In this document: piece by piece, positions 32,257 to 42,325 of the stretch
Position numbering within the stretch: position 1 is the first letter of the stretch
How the letters are laid out: each line of letters starts with the position of its first letter
Assembly (NCBI GenBank): GCA_028718225.1
Contig: JAQUMI010000005.1
Coordinates: 1 to 51,432 of the forward strand
DNA: 51,432 nucleotides
Reading direction: 5' to 3'
From: Candidatus Omnitrophota bacterium
GTDB taxonomy: Bacteria; Omnitrophota; Gorgyraeia; Gygaellales; Profunditerraquicolaceae
Notes under the pieces: generated by a model
The model's input: the letters and a program-made list of their open reading frames with translations, nothing else
What the model was told of the DNA's origin: nothing
The model's database searches: none
Made by a program: the position numbers and the translations under genes

Positions 32257-32721
32257 CTAGTTTTGTTTAAAGAGGGCTTTATCTTCTTGGGTTAATTCTC
32301 CGCAAAAAATCCACACCGAAATCTGCAGGCGTTCATCGAGCAGCCGGATAATTTTTCCGCTTTGCTGGATATTTTGGCCCTTATCAATATCCTTTACCTT
32401 GTCTTTATCTTTAAAGAGAAAGACTAGCTGGTAGGTAACGTTATTTTTTGTTTTCTGCGGGATTATGCTGACCTGATAGTAAGTGTTGCCGAGGTCATTA
32501 GCCGTATCAAAGAAATCATATTCTCCCGCATTACTGACTGTTCCGCCGCAAGAGATCTCCTTGCCCAGGCTGTCTTTTAAGACTTGCACCTTCTGCAAAT
32601 CAGTCGCCTTATAGAAATTGTTAACCAACCCTTCAATATCCATTGCCGCAGAATAGGAAGGGCCGCAAGCCCCTAAAAGAACGGCTAAAGAAAACGCGCA
32701 ACTCACCAATATTTTTTTCAT
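32257..32721 (-). CDS. Putative secreted/lipoprotein of unknown function
   Basis: Signal peptide with lipobox MKKILVSCAFSLAVLLGACGPSYS; RBS GGGGAGG on the minus strand. Confidence 0.65.
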   Translation of the reverse strand: MKKILVSCAFSLAVLLGACGPSYSAAMDIEGLVNNFYKATDLQKVQVLKDSLGKEISCGGTVSNAGEYDFFDTANDLGNTYYQVSIIPQKTKNNVTYQLVFLFKDKDKVKDIDKGQNIQQSGKIIRLLDERLQISVWIFCGELTQEDKALFKQN

Positions 32722-32801: not shown

Positions 32802-32830
32802 TTGACAAATATATGTAAAGTGAATATAAT
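32802..32830 (+). promoter_or_regulatory. Consensus sigma70 promoter upstream of HTH-TolC operon
   Basis: TTGACA (32802-32807) - 17 nt - TATAAT (32825-32830). Confidence 0.85.
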
Positions 32831-32870
32831 TATATGCAAATGAATATTATTATATGCAAAGTGTATATTA
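32810..32870 (+). repeat. Three tandem ~20-bp imperfect dyads (candidate operators)
   Basis: TATATGTAAAGTGAATATAAT / TATATGCAAATGAATATTAT / TATATGCAAAGTGTATATTA; each ATATgCA-N2/3-TGaATAT. Confidence 0.75.
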
Positions 32871-32880
32871 GGGGATCAAA

Positions 32881-34491
32881 ATGAGGCAGTTTTCCAAAAA
32901 TACCCTCAGGCTCCTTAAAGTTTTTTACAGCCATCCCAAGGAGCAGTATTATATCCAGGAACTGGGCAGGATCTTAAAAGCCAAACCCGGGGTCTTTCAG
33001 AGGACCCTTTATAATCTCCAGAAAGAAGGAGTTTTGCAAAGCTATTACCGGGCAAATGCCAGGTTCTTCAGCGTTAATAAAAATTACCCCTTTTATAAAG
33101 AATTTAAAAGCATTGTCCAAAAGTCGGCTAAGTTTGCGCTAAGCGCGGTCATTGCCAGCTTATTCTTATTGAACAGTTCAAGCGGTTTTTGTGCAGAGAA
33201 TAATCCAGAGACCCTGGTGCTTACTTCGCTGGAAGACGCGATTAAGATAGCGTTTAAAAATAATAAGGACATCCGGGTACAGGAATATGCGCTGAAAGTC
33301 GCTGATGCAGGGATACTGGATGCCAGGAGCGCGTTTTTGCCTAAGGTTGATTTCAATGCCGGTTATACGCGTAATGCCGCAGTGCTCAGCAGTTCAAGTA
33401 CTAGCGGCAAGAAAGACGTTGGTGTGTTTACCGGATATAAAAATAATAATCGTATGGGTGTAAGCTTGAATGATACTATTTACAGCGGCGGAGCCAATAT
33501 CGCTAGCCTAAGGCAGGCCGAGCTCTCCCTAAAGGAACAGGGCCAGACCCTGCGGGCAACCAAGCTTAATGTGGAATTGGAAGCCAAGAGGCTTTATCAC
33601 GGGCTCCTTCTGGCTTATGAAACAAAACGTATTGCCGAGGACCTCGTAGGGCAGGCAGAGAGCCATTATGAAGAAGTAAAAAACAAGTTTCAACAGGGGA
33701 CTGCCTCCAGGTTTGATGTTTTGCAGTCCAAGGTGCAGGTCTCGCTCCTAGAGCCACAGCTGATTAATGCCCAGAATGCGATAGACTTAATCATCGCGGA
33801 GATGAATAAGCTGCTTGGCTTGAAGATAAGCGACAGGATAATCATTAAGGATAAATTGCTCTATGAGCCCTTAGAGATAAAAGAAGAGGATTTCCTGAAA
33901 ACCGCCTACCTGAATGAGCCGGAGATGATTTTGAAGTCTCTGGGTATAGATATCAGCAAGTGGGCGATCAAACACGCCCGGGCAGGGTGGCTCCCGCAGC
34001 TGGAAACGAATGCCGAATATTATTATCAATCCAATAATCCGGGCAATATGTTTAACCGCAGGCATAATAATTGGAATATAGGTTTTACCGTGCGTCTGGC
34101 GATATTTGACGGATTTTCAACCAAGGCAAAAGTGGACAGCGCCCGCGCCAAACATATGCAGGCAATTATCAGTAAAGATAATACGGCTGACCAGGTGGCC
34201 GTTGACGTAAGGCAGGCTTGTCTAGACTTGAAACAGGCAGCCGCCGTAATAAAATCGCAGGAAGATAATTTGGAGGATGCCCGGGAAGCTTTGCAGATAT
34301 CTTATGTTCGTTATAATAACGGCGTAGGTATCAATCTGGATGTGTTGGATGCGCAGGTTTCTCTGGCTAACGTAGAAAAGAACCTGGCTGAAAGTACCTA
34401 CGATTATATTATGGCTAAGGCAAGATTAGATAGGATTATGGGTAATGGTTTTATAGAGCCTGCCTCGCCGGCAGTCAGGGAGGAAAAATGA
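32881..34491 (+). CDS. TolC-family outer-membrane efflux protein with N-terminal winged-helix DNA-binding domain
   Basis: N-term MRQFSKNTLRLLKVFYSHPKEQYYIQELGRILKAKPGVFQRTLYNLQKEGVLQSYYRANARFFSVNKNYPFYKEFKSIV (wHTH), then KSAKFALSAVIASLFLLNSSSGFCAEN (signal/TM), then OEP repeats. Confidence 0.85.
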   Translation: MRQFSKNTLRLLKVFYSHPKEQYYIQELGRILKAKPGVFQRTLYNLQKEGVLQSYYRANARFFSVNKNYPFYKEFKSIVQKSAKFALSAVIASLFLLNSSSGFCAENNPETLVLTSLEDAIKIAFKNNKDIRVQEYALKVADAGILDARSAFLPKVDFNAGYTRNAAVLSSSSTSGKKDVGVFTGYKNNNRMGVSLNDTIYSGGANIASLRQAELSLKEQGQTLRATKLNVELEAKRLYHGLLLAYETKRIAEDLVGQAESHYEEVKNKFQQGTASRFDVLQSKVQVSLLEPQLINAQNAIDLIIAEMNKLLGLKISDRIIIKDKLLYEPLEIKEEDFLKTAYLNEPEMILKSLGIDISKWAIKHARAGWLPQLETNAEYYYQSNNPGNMFNRRHNNWNIGFTVRLAIFDGFSTKAKVDSARAKHMQAIISKDNTADQVAVDVRQACLDLKQAAAVIKSQEDNLEDAREALQISYVRYNNGVGINLDVLDAQVSLANVEKNLAESTYDYIMAKARLDRIMGNGFIEPASPAVREEK

Positions 34492-35324
34492 AAAAGAAGG
34501 GAAAACTTATAATTACAGCTCTGATTTTGGCCATTGCCGCCTACACGGCGGTTGTTTTTCTCTTAAAAGAGAAGCAGGCCAATAATAAGGTTATCAAGGT
34601 TTCCGGAAACATTGAGGGTGATGATGTGCGCATATCCTTCAGAATAACCGGACAGATTATTGAGCTTTTGACGGATGAAGGTAAGGTCATCAGGAAGGGG
34701 GATATTGTCGCCCGGCTGAATAGAGATGAACTGAGTAAAGTTCAGGCTGAGGCAGAAGCAGCGCTAAAATTAGCAGAATACCAGTATAAACTGGATTATG
34801 ATGATTATGTGAGGGCTGAAAATCTGCTTAAGGCAGGCGCGATTTCCGCTCAACAGCGCGATACGGCGAAAACCAGAATGAACACTGATTCGGCAAACAT
34901 AAAACAATTACGCGCTTCCCTGGAGCTGGCTAATACAAAACTAGGCTGGGCAGATTTAGCCAGCCCGCTTGACGGTTATGTGCTGGTAAAAAGCGCCCTT
35001 CCCGGTGAAGTCGTGCAGCCTGGCTCTCCGGTTTTTACTGCCGTCAACCTGGATGACCTCTGGGTTACTGCTTATATAAATGAGACGGATTTAGGTAAAG
35101 TTAAATTAGGGCAAAAGGCGTACGTGGAGACAGATACTTACCGCGGAAAGAAATACAGCGGCCGGGTTTCGTTTATATCCAGCCAGACCGAGTTCACTCC
35201 TAAATACATCCAAACCAATGAAGAGAGGGTAAAGTACGTTTACCGGATCAAGGTGAGAGTTGACAATTCCAGTCTGGATTTAAAACCCGGGATGCCCGCG
35301 GACGCCTATATTATAATTGAATAA
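34488..35324 (+). CDS. HlyD/EmrA-type periplasmic adaptor
   Basis: Membrane anchor, ISFRITGQIIELLTDEGKVIRKGDIVARL, coiled coil, ATGA overlap. Confidence 0.92.
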   Translation: MKKKGKLIITALILAIAAYTAVVFLLKEKQANNKVIKVSGNIEGDDVRISFRITGQIIELLTDEGKVIRKGDIVARLNRDELSKVQAEAEAALKLAEYQYKLDYDDYVRAENLLKAGAISAQQRDTAKTRMNTDSANIKQLRASLELANTKLGWADLASPLDGYVLVKSALPGEVVQPGSPVFTAVNLDDLWVTAYINETDLGKVKLGQKAYVETDTYRGKKYSGRVSFISSQTEFTPKYIQTNEERVKYVYRIKVRVDNSSLDLKPGMPADAYIIIE

Positions 35325-35333
35325 ATTCAGGCC

Positions 35334-36074
35334 ATGGTTACGATAAAAACTGAGAACCTGACCCGTAAATTCGGGGTACTCACAGCCTTAGACCAGCTTA
35401 ACCTTGAGGTGCAGGAGGGTGAGATCTTTGGCCTGGTCGGCCCGGATGGAGCAGGTAAAACTACAACTATGCGTCTTTTAACCGGAATTCTCAATCCTAC
35501 GGAAGGCCAGGCCTGGACTTGCAATAAGCATACTGTAAAAGAAGCGGAAAGTCTCAAAGAGCATATTGCTTACATGTCCCAGCGTTTCGGGCTTTATGAA
35601 GAATTAAGCGTCCTGGAAAATATTAACTTTTACGCTGATGTTTACGGAGTAGCCAGAGATAAACGCCTAGAAGCTATTGAGCGCTTGCTGGGTTTTTCCG
35701 GACTTTTGCCCTTTAAACAGCGTTTTGCCGGTAAGCTCTCCGGAGGAATGAAACAAAAACTAGGCTTAGCTTGCGCTCTCATCCATACTCCGAAAGTCTT
35801 GTTTTTAGATGAGCCTACTAACGGCGTTGACCCGGTCTCCCGCAGGGACTTCTGGAATATACTTTATGACCTGCTTAAGGAAAAAGTCACCATATTTTGT
35901 TCTACCTGCTATCTGGATGAGGCTGAACGTTGCCACCGCGTCGGCCTGATGCACAAGGGGAAGCTCTTGCGTTGCGATTCTCCCGGCAGGATTAAGCAAG
36001 AATATAATACTAAAACTCTAGAGGAAGCATTTATCACGATAATCGGAGAATATGAAAGAGGCCAGCCCAAATAA
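35334..36074 (+). CDS. ABC transporter ATP-binding protein
   Basis: GPDGAGKTTTMRLLTG, LSGGMKQKLGLA, VLFLDEPTNGVDPVSR. Confidence 0.94.
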   Translation: MVTIKTENLTRKFGVLTALDQLNLEVQEGEIFGLVGPDGAGKTTTMRLLTGILNPTEGQAWTCNKHTVKEAESLKEHIAYMSQRFGLYEELSVLENINFYADVYGVARDKRLEAIERLLGFSGLLPFKQRFAGKLSGGMKQKLGLACALIHTPKVLFLDEPTNGVDPVSRRDFWNILYDLLKEKVTIFCSTCYLDEAERCHRVGLMHKGKLLRCDSPGRIKQEYNTKTLEEAFITIIGEYERGQPK

Positions 36075-37017
36075 CATTGCCGTAAGCGTCCAGGGTCTAG
36101 AAAAGAAATTCGGGAATTTCACCGCGGTCAACCGGATCAACTTTGAAGTCAAGCCCGGTGAGATCTTTGGATTCTTAGGGCCGAATGGCGCGGGTAAATC
36201 CACTACCATCAGGATGCTCTGCGGGATTATCAGCCCTACCTCAGGCTCGGGAAAGGTGGGCGGTTTTGATATTATCAAAGAGCAGCATAAAATCAAGGAA
36301 CATATCGGTTATATGTCCCAGAAGTTTTCTCTTTATAATGACTTGACCGTAAAGGAGAATATTGATTTTTACAGCGGGATATATAAGATCCCGCAAAAGG
36401 ATAAAAAAGAACGACTGGAAACAACTGTGCGGACCGCGGGTTTAGAGGGGATGGAAGGTAATCTTACTGCGACGCTTGCCGGGGGCTGGAAACAGCGCCT
36501 GGCCCTGGGGTGCGCGCTGATTCATAAGCCCAGGATTATCTTTCTTGATGAGCCGACCTCAGGCGTTGATCCGATAACCCGCGCCAATTTCTGGGGCATT
36601 ATCAAAGAATTAGCCGGCCAAGGAGTAACTGTTTTTGTTACCACGCATTATATGGATGAGGCGGAGAATTGCAACCGGATGGTTTTAATTTATCACGGCA
36701 CAATTATCGCCGCGGGTACGCCGCAAGAGATGAAGACTGAAGTCATGAAGAATGAGGTCCTCGAGATTGCAATAGCTGATGCCCAGGGCTGGCTAGAGAG
36801 GGTCGTTAAAATAGAAGGTGTTAAGGAAGCCGCGCTCTTCGGAGCGGATATTCACGCTGTTGTTTACGACAGTTCTAAGGCAATTCCGGCGATAAAGGAA
36901 TTCCTGCACGGCGCAGGCGGGAGGGAATTCAGCGTGAATAAAATCCTTCCCTCCCTGGAAGATGTATTCGTTTCCTCAATAGAAGAATATGATCGCACAG
37001 AGCTTAAGAAGAATTAA
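36052..37017 (+). CDS. ABC transporter ATP-binding protein
   Basis: GPNGAGKSTTIRMLCG, LAGGWKQRLALG, IIFLDEPTSGVDPITR. Confidence 0.94.
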   Translation: MKEASPNNIAVSVQGLEKKFGNFTAVNRINFEVKPGEIFGFLGPNGAGKSTTIRMLCGIISPTSGSGKVGGFDIIKEQHKIKEHIGYMSQKFSLYNDLTVKENIDFYSGIYKIPQKDKKERLETTVRTAGLEGMEGNLTATLAGGWKQRLALGCALIHKPRIIFLDEPTSGVDPITRANFWGIIKELAGQGVTVFVTTHYMDEAENCNRMVLIYHGTIIAAGTPQEMKTEVMKNEVLEIAIADAQGWLERVVKIEGVKEAALFGADIHAVVYDSSKAIPAIKEFLHGAGGREFSVNKILPSLEDVFVSSIEEYDRTELKKN

Positions 37018-38131
37018 ATCTATAGCCTGGAAGGAATTTATCCAGATTAAACGCGATCCGCGCTCTTTAGGGCTGGCCCTGGCGATCCCGATATTCCTGT
37101 TATTGATTTTTGGTTACGGGCTTAGCCTGGATATCGATAAAGTCCCGACCATTGTCTGGAATCAGGATGCTTCCAGTGAGCTAAGCCGGGATTTTATGCT
37201 CAATTTCAAAAATTCCAAATACTTTAAAATAATCGGCTATACGGATAACTACCGTCAGATCGAGCACCTGATCAATGCGGGAGAGGTCATGATGGCCTTG
37301 ATCATCCCCAAGGATTTTTCCCATTATCTTGAATCCGGCAAGGCAACGCCATTGCAACTTATCGTGGATGGAAGCGATGCCAATACCGCTACCATTGCCA
37401 TGGGTTATGTGCGGACAGTAGTTTCTAATTATAATGTGAATCTGTTGAGCAGTACGTTTGCCTCCCGGGGACTGCCAAGACCTCAGACAGTGGATGCCCG
37501 CTCCAGGGTCTGGTTTAATATGGGCCTGACCAGCACCTGGTTTATTGTCCCCGGGGTTATCGCGATGATTATTATGATTATTGCCGGGTTGCTCACTTCC
37601 ATTTGTATCGCCCGCGAATGGGAGAGGGGGACGATGGAACAGCTGATCTCTACACCCGTAAAAGCCCCGGAGCTAGTCATCGGTAAATTCATCCCCTATT
37701 TTACCATTGGGTTTTTTGACCTCATCGTGGGCATAATCATGGCCCAGTTTCTGTTTGGCGTGCCTTTTCGGGGGAGTTATCTATTGCTTATTTTACTAAG
37801 CTCGCTGTTTCTAACCGGTGCTCTGTCCCAGGGGATATTGATTTCCGTAGTTGCCAGGACACAATTAATGGCCAGCCAGCTGGCTACCCTTACTACTATG
37901 TTGCCGACTGTACTTCTTTCCGGGTTTATCTATCCGATCTTTAATATGCCTCAATTTATCCAGGCGATCACTTATCTTGTCCCGGCGCGCTATTATATTG
38001 TTGTCTTGAGGGAAATATTCTTGAAAGGCGGCACAATAACTGTTTTGTGGGATGAGACGCTTTTTCTCTTTTTATTTGCTCTGATAATGTTCGGTATTGC
38101 GGTAAAGAGATTCAAAAAAAAGGTGGCTTAG
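36989..38131 (+). CDS. ABC-2 family permease (YbhS-like)
   Basis: WKEFIQIKRDPRSLGLALAIPIFLLLIFGYGL; EWERGTMEQLISTPVKAPELVIGKFIPY; GFIYPIFNMP. Confidence 0.92.
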   Translation: MIAQSLRRIKSIAWKEFIQIKRDPRSLGLALAIPIFLLLIFGYGLSLDIDKVPTIVWNQDASSELSRDFMLNFKNSKYFKIIGYTDNYRQIEHLINAGEVMMALIIPKDFSHYLESGKATPLQLIVDGSDANTATIAMGYVRTVVSNYNVNLLSSTFASRGLPRPQTVDARSRVWFNMGLTSTWFIVPGVIAMIIMIIAGLLTSICIAREWERGTMEQLISTPVKAPELVIGKFIPYFTIGFFDLIVGIIMAQFLFGVPFRGSYLLLILLSSLFLTGALSQGILISVVARTQLMASQLATLTTMLPTVLLSGFIYPIFNMPQFIQAITYLVPARYYIVVLREIFLKGGTITVLWDETLFLFLFALIMFGIAVKRFKKKVA

Positions 38132-38132
38132 G

Positions 38133-39260
38133 ATGTTTGAGCGCTCAAGGGCGATCCTGATAAAAGAATTTAAACAAATCTTCCGCGACCCGCGGATGAA
38201 AACGGTTATCTTTATTACTCCGCTGATCCAGATACTTCTCTTCGGATACGCCGCGAATAAGGATATTAACTATGTTCCAACGGCTATTTTAGACCGGGAT
38301 AATACTATGGAGAGCCGTGAGCTTCTGCGCAGGTTTACTTATTCCAAATATTTTATCCCGGAATATTATATCTTTAGCGAAAAGGAGCAAAATTTCATTC
38401 TGGATAAGGGTTTAGCCAGCGTGGTTATTCATATTGACCGCGGCTTTGGCCGTGACCTTAACGCCGGAAAGGACGCCTCAATCCAGCTGGCTTTTGATGG
38501 CACAGATTCAAATACAGCGATGATCATTATGGGCTATGCCAATACCATTGTAAGCGATTATCAGTATGATTTGTTAAAAGAGGAGCTGGAAGCAAGCGGT
38601 TTAACCGGCAGCGCTCCCAGAGTTGACTTAAGGGACCGCGCCTGGTTTAACGGTAACTTAATTTCCCGGAATTATTATCTTCCGGGCGTGATCGCCATCA
38701 TTGTAACGATGATGTCGCTTTTATTGACCTCCATGGCAATAGTAAAAGAGAAGGAGATTGGCACGATGGAGCAGTTAATTGTCAGCCCTTTAAAGCCTCT
38801 TGACCTTATTATCGGTAAGCTCCTTCCGTTTGCAATAATCGCGCTGGTTCAGATTATCCTTATTACCATATTGGGCGTAGCCTGGTTTCATATACCCTTA
38901 AGAGGGAATCTATTCTTATTGCTCTTGTCTACCTGCGTATATTTATTTACTACTCTGGGGATAGGCTTATTTATCTCCACAATATCCTCAACCCAGCAGG
39001 AGGCGATGATGTCGGTTTTTCTTTTTTATATGCCGGCTATGCTTTTATCCGGCTTTGCCTATCCGATAGCCAATATGCCGCAATGGATCCAGTGGTTTAC
39101 CCTGGTCAATCCTTTACGTTATTTTATGGTTATTGTGCGGAGTTTGTTTTTAAAAGGAGTAGGATTAGAGGTTCTCTGGCCCCAGCTTATACCGTTAATT
39201 ATCATGGGTATTTTAGTAATTACCTTTAGCGCTTTTCGCTTCCGCAGGAGTCTAGGCTAG
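38133..39260 (+). CDS. ABC-2 family permease (YbhR-like)
   Basis: IKEFKQIFRDPRMKTVIFITPLIQILLFGYAA; EKEIGTMEQLIVSPLKPLDLIIGKLLPF. Confidence 0.92.
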   Translation: MFERSRAILIKEFKQIFRDPRMKTVIFITPLIQILLFGYAANKDINYVPTAILDRDNTMESRELLRRFTYSKYFIPEYYIFSEKEQNFILDKGLASVVIHIDRGFGRDLNAGKDASIQLAFDGTDSNTAMIIMGYANTIVSDYQYDLLKEELEASGLTGSAPRVDLRDRAWFNGNLISRNYYLPGVIAIIVTMMSLLLTSMAIVKEKEIGTMEQLIVSPLKPLDLIIGKLLPFAIIALVQIILITILGVAWFHIPLRGNLFLLLLSTCVYLFTTLGIGLFISTISSTQQEAMMSVFLFYMPAMLLSGFAYPIANMPQWIQWFTLVNPLRYFMVIVRSLFLKGVGLEVLWPQLIPLIIMGILVITFSAFRFRRSLG

Positions 39261-40640: not shown

Positions 40641-40670
40641 GCCCTTATGCATCTGGCATAGGGGTTTTTT
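40641..40670 (+). terminator. Intrinsic terminator, expression platform of TPP riboswitch
   Basis: GCCCTTATGCATCTGGCATAGGGGTTTTTT: CCCTTATGC/GCATAGGGG stem + T6. Confidence 0.8.
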
Positions 40671-41590: not shown

Positions 41591-41623
41591 TTATTACATT
41601 TTTAAAAGATGTTGAGATTTTGC

Positions 41624-41676
41624 TTGACAAAAAGTAAAAATGAATTTAATATACATAATATGAATACAAATTCATT
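41624..41676 (+). promoter_or_regulatory. Promoter and candidate TetR operator
   Basis: TTGACA-17-TAATAT; perfect inverted repeat AATGAATTT (41639-41647) / AAATTCATT (41668-41676) spanning -10 and start codon. Confidence 0.65.
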
Positions 41677-42325
41677 AATTGAGGAAATAATCAAAAATAC
41701 CCAAATTTCTGCCAGCTTAAGCCGGAAAGAAAGAGATAAGCAGCTGCGCAAAGCTGATATTATGGCTGCGGCAGAACGCGTTTTTGCCTTAAAAGGCTAT
41801 CATGGGGCGGTAATGCAGGATATTGCCCGCGAGGCCCAGTATGCCACCGGCACGGTTTATTTGTATTTCAGGGATAAAGAAATGCTTTATTTTTCCCTGG
41901 TAGAAGAGAAGATGATAAATTTAACAACTGGATTAAGGCAGAAGACAGCTCAGGTCGCTGACGCCGAAGATAAACTACGGATCTTTATGCAGGAGAGTTT
42001 GGATTTTTTTGAAAGGAATCAGGATTTTTTCAGGATATTCTTTTCAGAGGTATCCAAAGGCCCGATATTGAAAAAAGGGAAGTTCTCTAAGCCTTCCGGG
42101 ATGCTGCAGCACAAAGAATTTGTCGAAGAGCTTATCAGTACCGGACAAAAACAGAAAATAATAAGGAATGATTTTAGCGCAAAACAGATAGCCGATATTC
42201 TTGGATCGATTTTTATGGCTTTCATTTTTGATTGGTTGAAGGAAGGCCCAAAAGATAAGAAATTAAATACTGCGGCTGATTTTATCCTGGATATATTTTT
42301 AAGCGGAGCAGGCAGGAGAAGATGA
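41660..42325 (+). CDS. TetR/AcrR family transcriptional regulator
   Basis: KADIMAAAERVFALKGYHGAVMQDIAREAQYATGTVYLYFRDKEMLYFSLVEEK HTH; ATG 41660 likely. Confidence 0.92.
   Translation: MNTNSLIEEIIKNTQISASLSRKERDKQLRKADIMAAAERVFALKGYHGAVMQDIAREAQYATGTVYLYFRDKEMLYFSLVEEKMINLTTGLRQKTAQVADAEDKLRIFMQESLDFFERNQDFFRIFFSEVSKGPILKKGKFSKPSGMLQHKEFVEELISTGQKQKIIRNDFSAKQIADILGSIFMAFIFDWLKEGPKDKKLNTAADFILDIFLSGAGRRR

Follow-up and report, generated by a model that had tools for sequence, protein, structure and literature searches.

Why should an outer-membrane efflux channel carry a DNA-binding domain ahead of its signal peptide, and what could that domain do there? The question is raised by a gene in the window, the whole 51,432-nucleotide stretch of Omnitrophota DNA analysed here, which is part of a 1.04 Mb genome assembly in 53 contigs. 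The ORF at 32881-34491 is a single intact frame with an ATG at 32881, a stop at 34491 and 536 aa. The original prediction of a winged helix-turn-helix (wHTH), a signal-like segment and a full outer-membrane efflux protein (OEP) in one frame is correct in both frame and coordinates.

Architecture of the fusion gene and its operon

The fusion is the first gene of a drug-type efflux operon that continues with an HlyD adaptor, two ABC ATPases and two ABC-2 permeases. The features of the locus, all on the + strand, are as follows.

32802..32830, +, sigma-70 type promoter TTGACA-17-TATAAT (12/12 consensus positions)
32810..32828, +, putative operator copy 1, TATATGTAAAGTGAATATA, within the promoter spacer and -10 (2 or fewer mismatches)
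32831..32848, +, putative operator copy 2, TATATGCAAATGAATATT (4-base spacer in the window genome; register kept in relatives)
32851..32869, +, putative operator copy 3, TATATGCAAAGTGTATATT (from a genome-wide palindrome scan)
32870..32880, +, Shine-Dalgarno-like AGGGGAT before ATG 32881 (duplex energy -6.4)
32881..34491, +, winged helix - signal peptide - TolC/OEP outer-membrane efflux channel fusion gene (recurs full-length in other genomes)
32881..33123, +, winged-helix DNA-binding domain, residues 1-81 (profile matches to ArsR/MarR/BlaI structures; 25 invariant columns; dN/dS 0.02-0.09)
33124..33192, +, signal peptide, residues about 82-104 (AXA-like site behind the hydrophobic core in 31/32 fused proteins)
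33193..34488, +, mature OEP/TolC-family channel (PF02321, 2.1e-69; TIGR01844, 6.2e-51, below the TIGR01844 cut-off)
34488..35324, +, HlyD-type periplasmic adaptor in the same operon as the fusion (PF16576, PF13437)
35334..37017, +, two ABC ATPase genes, 35334-36074 and 36052-37017 (PF00005)
36989..39260, +, two ABC-2 permease genes, 36989-38131 and 38133-39260 (PF12698)

The OEP part matches PF02321 over two repeats with 233.5 bits against a curated cut-off of 22 (E=2.1e-69). The signal peptide begins at residue 82 instead of at the N-terminus and was called by pattern, as a hydrophobic core with an AXA-like site, not by a trained predictor; signal peptidase I is predicted to cut the window fusion after GFC (residue 104). 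The predicted hydrophobic segment is conserved in relatives and is cleavable in form. The best NCBIfam resemblances of the ABC ATPases are to drrA and RbbA, below cut-off, and a second OEP gene is absent from the operon. The OEP should be a working outer-membrane channel because it is full length and heads an otherwise complete operon.

One-component regulators such as ToxR and CadC consist of a cytoplasmic winged helix, one membrane segment and an exported domain. The fusion has the same order of parts, an N-in winged helix, one hydrophobic segment and a large exported domain, and might likewise stay uncleaved in the inner membrane with its OEP part as a periplasmic sensor. That reading is very improbable. 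ToxR and CadC have an uncleaved anchor and an exported sensor, whereas the fusion has a cleavable-looking segment (31/32) and a transport component. The hydrophobic cores are signal-peptide-like, with a longest uncharged run of mostly 10-19, and the full-length OEP heads an otherwise complete ABC-efflux operon.

The original prediction contrasted this operon with a neighboring paralogous operon that has a separate TetR gene. The TetR gene is present (ORF 41609-42325, E=2.5e-14), but the pump beside it is MacB-type and is not a close paralog. On the other side of the fusion, a divergent gene (32257-32721, - strand) encodes a small exported protein with a weak tRNA_anti-like (OB-fold) resemblance. 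A homolog with 63% identity still adjoins a truncated fusion in another genome (G052), and the neighborhood is thus conserved.

Spread and conservation of the fusion

A search of 59 related genomes found full-length matches to the fusion, with 58-93% identity, in 15 others. Within the order, 33 of 128 genomes contain strong matches to the winged-helix profile (E about 1e-38 or better), most of them located in open frames that measure about 518-565 aa. Outside the order, families f23 and f38 of the Omnitrophota also have the fusion. Altogether, more than 30 Omnitrophota genomes have it as an open frame; they span three families, and a fourth family has a truncated copy. The architecture proposed for a search in relatives is therefore found there, full-length, in three families. 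A fragmented assembly of 53 contigs would allow for a sequencing, assembly or frameshift artifact. Recurrence at 58-93% identity over the full length excludes a local frameshift or assembly error, and with more than 25 other assemblies in which this frame is open, the artifact has practically no likelihood left.

Pairwise dN/dS values are 0.02-0.09 for the winged helix, where dN is 0 in one near-identical pair, and 0.04-0.11 for the OEP. By this measure, the two domains are under similar purifying selection. The winged helix has 25 invariant columns in an alignment of 17 sequences. The signal peptide changes faster than both domains and retains its hydrophobicity and, in 31/32, its AXA-like site.

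Within the order, no fusion partner of the winged helix other than OEP was found: the frames that contain it are OEP fusions, truncated or contig-cut copies of these, or ORFs of nucleotidyltransferase length (about 175-235 aa). In the OEP-domain tree, five close relatives that lack the fusion are interspersed with the fused proteins, which suggests losses of the winged helix, and several gains would also be compatible with this tree.

Several copies are altered. In L025 (G052, family f6) and L105/L129 (G089) the pump operon is gone, and the operator, winged helix, signal peptide and about 25-33 OEP residues persist in frame. The two truncated copies, from two families, end at nearly the same residue (NNKDIQ...), and this winged helix-signal stub may have a function of its own or may be a relic. 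The gene after the truncated fusion in G089 encodes a desulfoferrodoxin homolog. L095/L130 (G119), where winged helix and OEP fall into different frames at an A/T run in the linker, was considered as a split wHTH/OEP pair and rejected. It is probably decay, since only about 132 aa of the OEP are left and the remaining pump genes are gone. Internal deletions join the OEP to the end of the ABC ATPase in L092 (G087) and to HlyD in a 765-aa frame in L093 (G077); these may be natural or assembly misjoins.

Origin of the winged helix and its palindromic operators

Residues 1-80 alone matched no Pfam or NCBIfam model above cut-off. Profile A4, in which nucleotidyltransferase relatives are included, matches solved winged helices of the ArsR/MarR/BlaI type with E=3.8e-4 to 5e-3; the best match is Lmo1102 (E=3.8e-4), and 3r0a and HlyU are also matched. 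A fusion-only profile gives weaker matches to the same structures (E 0.06 to 0.25). AlphaFold models calculated from 5 alignment rows are of too low quality to rely on (mean pLDDT 57 and 47), although their helices 6-17, 23-34 and 36-48 fall at the HTH positions. The profile matches support the suspected wHTH as real, and its recognition helix comprises about residues 35-48 (KPGVFQRTLYNLQK).

The closest relatives of the domain are winged helices that head nucleotidyltransferases of ~190 aa (PF18765/PF01909), which are followed by HEPN-like genes. The fusion profile matches these winged helices with E 1e-31 to 1e-39. The nucleotidyltransferase weakly resembles the MntA antitoxin and the adjacent HEPN-like genes weakly match PF05168, both below cut-off; MNT/HEPN toxin-antitoxin pairs are described as a type elsewhere (PMC3710099). 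A domain-model search finds no NTP_transf_2/Polbeta match in the window fusion, where the signal peptide and OEP stand in place of the nucleotidyltransferase. The winged-helix tree places all 32 fused copies together, with 80% bootstrap support, and next to them the nucleotidyltransferase winged helices with a PGxFQ recognition helix. Judged by these similarities, the fused winged helix descends from wHTH-nucleotidyltransferase genes of the MNT/HEPN toxin-antitoxin type. The wide spread and the 80%-bootstrap grouping rule out a recent fusion of a standalone wHTH gene in the window genome only. This origin, the palindromic operators and the TetR or PadR-like genes near two of five unfused orthologous operons formed no part of the earlier reading.

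Three copies of a palindrome with the consensus TATATGC-N5-GCATATA lie over and just downstream of the fusion promoter. The window genome's copies are not perfect, with 2 of 14 positions mismatched, and the whole 1.04 Mb assembly contains two sites with 2 or fewer mismatches to the consensus, both at this promoter. The regions upstream of 36 fused genes contain 80 palindrome sites with at least 10/14 matches versus 12.6 expected in dinucleotide shuffles. The sites are spaced 21, 41-42 or 61 bp apart in all but two intervals; fused upstreams of family f23 have a 4-base spacer and a 20-bp array. At least one site with the relaxed core TATGC-N4/5-GCATA is present upstream of all fused genes (36/36). 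Palindromes are absent within 130 bp upstream of the unfused orthologous operons (0/5), two of which have another regulator gene, an adjacent TetR in G009 and a nearby PadR-like gene in G031 that was named from sequence only. The layout at the fusion is that expected of an autorepressor, with palindromes that overlap the gene's own promoter and are conserved with the gene. From the position of the array across -35/-10 we infer repression rather than activation. A perfect core palindrome at 40646-40660 was rejected as an operator. It is the stem of an intrinsic terminator (40642-40666) that precedes a Thi4-family gene and reads CCCTTATGC-ATCTG-GCATAGGGG then a T run, its stem equal to the TATGC-N5-GCATA core.

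The operators also bear on whether the winged helix is a functionless passenger of an accidental fusion. Some relatives lack the winged helix and others lack the pump, as a passive relic would allow. Purifying selection like that on the OEP, the 25 invariant positions and the operators in 36/36 all speak against a relic, which has very little probability left.

A match between recognition helix and operator extends across both gene families. TATGC palindromes lie near the start codon in 11/11 wHTH-nucleotidyltransferase genes with a PG[VIN]FQ recognition helix and in 0/42 with other recognition helices (Fisher p=1.3e-11, a value that ignores shared ancestry). The palindromes of the PGxFQ genes are typically located at -42 and -21 at their own promoter, which gives a 21-bp phasing. 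Phased operators are found at the PGxFQ loci L109-L114, L119-L122 and L039, all of MNT/HEPN type. Recognition helices in the other wHTH-nucleotidyltransferases include DPGNLSREL, DKRNLVRKI and PVSMLRKEL, and other operators are predicted for these. The fused winged helices have KPG[VA]FQ. The PGxFQ/palindrome match together with KPG[VA]FQ in the fusion means that the winged helix very probably recognizes TATGC palindromes in the nucleotidyltransferase and fusion settings alike, and this points to domain and operator having been captured together. The sequence correspondence strongly implies that the winged helix binds the operators of the fusion.

Translation, export and proposed repression

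The window fusion has in-frame ATG, GTG or TTG codons at residues 52 (in the winged helix), 97 (in the hydrophobic core) and 113, and none between the winged helix and the hydrophobic segment, as originally noted. The companion claim, that the OEP is normally made only as a fusion, gains support from the relatives: 14/32 fused genes, the window's included, have no ATG/GTG/TTG between reference residues 70 and 88. Internal initiation would instead yield a normal OEP precursor from a non-canonical ATT/ATC/ATA at Ile78, or from GTG/ATG in some relatives, with the long form as an occasional fusion or regulator. Residue 78 is Ile in nearly all fused genes and its codon is hence ATT, ATC or ATA; at least one ATG/GTG/TTG falls within residues 70-88 in 18/32 genes; and two f23 fusions have GTG/ATG codons at residues 79-80 (L116 and L118, the latter with a weak SD). 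The SD duplex energies of the ATG/GTG/TTG candidates in the fused genes reach -4.3 at best and are mostly above -3, compared with -3.7 to -7.4 at most true starts. The Ile78 helix is equally conserved in the wHTH-nucleotidyltransferases, where a start is unneeded. The 14/32 genes without a start codon and the weak SD energies elsewhere make internal initiation unlikely as a general rule, and as an explanation of the locus it is improbable.

A cytoplasmic DNA-binding domain on an exported protein had been called topologically odd. This is overstated: Sec export can accommodate an N-in folded domain ahead of the signal peptide, and there is a precedent in RsiV (PMC9044953). The genome encodes signal peptidase I (TIGR02227, E=2.4e-50) and an RseP-family site-2 protease (S2P; TIGR00054, E=1.2e-46), both over cut-off. 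N-in/C-out proteins become S2P substrates when they have lost their periplasmic part, and S2Ps also dispose of leftover signal peptides (PMC10470546). For RsiV, whose regulatory domain is cytoplasmic, the site-1 cut behind that domain is made by signal peptidase (PMC9044953).

These precedents, the N-in layout and the two encoded proteases favor a mechanism that we regard as reasonably probable, in which a captured antitoxin-type autorepressor is the N-terminal pro-part of the channel and the stub left by cleavage represses the operon. The winged helix would have been taken with its operator from wHTH-nucleotidyltransferase antitoxin-type genes to become the operon's own repressor. The entire chain would be translated from one start, the winged helix would fold in the cytoplasm, and the signal peptide that follows would send the OEP through Sec. 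Signal peptidase I would cut after about residue 104, and the inner membrane would retain an N-in fragment of ~104 residues that consists of the winged helix and the signal helix. This fragment would act at the membrane, or after trimming by the RseP-type site-2 protease, and would bind the phased palindromes over the TTGACA-TATAAT promoter to repress the efflux operon. One repressor would be left behind per exported channel. The earlier proposal that transcription is coupled to export is supported in part, and autorepression makes it specific: the operator array on the fusion's own promoter is consistent with coupling; cleavage, tethering or release, repression and the active form (precursor, anchored stub or released domain) are parts of the model that we infer. 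A more tentative extension is that the fragment exists in a 1:1 ratio with exported channels and that the cell counts its pumps by leftover signal-peptide stubs. The stub might simply be degraded, and the sequence gives no hint of an inducer of the operon.

The main rival uses the same parts as the stub mechanism with the opposite sign of coupling to export. Here the repressor would be the uncleaved precursor, which binds the operators before it is exported or while it is still being translated close to its own gene; the fragment would be destroyed once it is cut off. The winged helix is translated ahead of the signal peptide and might already be folded when the latter emerges from the ribosome, S2P normally clears remnant signal peptides (PMC10470546) and is encoded in the genome, and the same operators fit both mechanisms. 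Against this, palindromic operators call for a dimer, and a nascent chain that is exported rapidly would be poorly placed to dimerize; the precursor is the unlikely choice of the two. With the precursor as repressor, a backlog in Sec export or envelope assembly would switch the operon off.

Cleavage to a resident stub, the preferred mechanism, combines elements that are known separately. The MNT/HEPN antitoxin-type genes (type VII-like) have the same winged helix and the same 21-bp-phased palindromic operator at their own promoter; behind the winged helix they have a cytoplasmic nucleotidyltransferase and a HEPN-like gene, whereas the fusion has a signal peptide and an outer-membrane channel. 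TetR- and PadR-regulated ABC efflux operons, which include the unfused G009 and G031, have the same kind of pump genes with a regulator gene next to or near the OEP. Their regulators are separate ligand-binding proteins; the fusion regulator, by contrast, lacks a ligand domain and belongs to the channel precursor itself. The RsiV/sigma-V system, in which RasP is the site-2 protease, resembles the fusion in its cytoplasmic regulatory domain, signal-peptide-like segment with a signal peptidase site and exported domain (PMC9044953). RsiV is an anti-sigma factor that is cut only on lysozyme binding, while the fusion carries a DNA-binding domain and its cleavage should be constitutive; homology between them is not expected. 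AbiEi/Rv2827c shares with the proposal an N-terminal antitoxin DNA-binding domain and negative autoregulation through promoter inverted repeats (PMC7319586), but is of a different family and has no export component. No description of a repressor ahead of an OEP signal peptide was found in the open-licence literature searched, and the combination looks new.

Signal peptides are usually regarded as waste after export. In these bacteria a probable repressor sits on a signal peptide, with a dedicated operator at its own promoter, and the arrangement is conserved over several families. A toxin-antitoxin autoregulatory module, domain and operator together, would have been captured for pump control, and its recognition-helix/operator match (PGxFQ to TATGC-N5-GCATA) is testable. 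If cleavage occurs as proposed, the fusion would be a simple link between transcription of an envelope component and its successful export.
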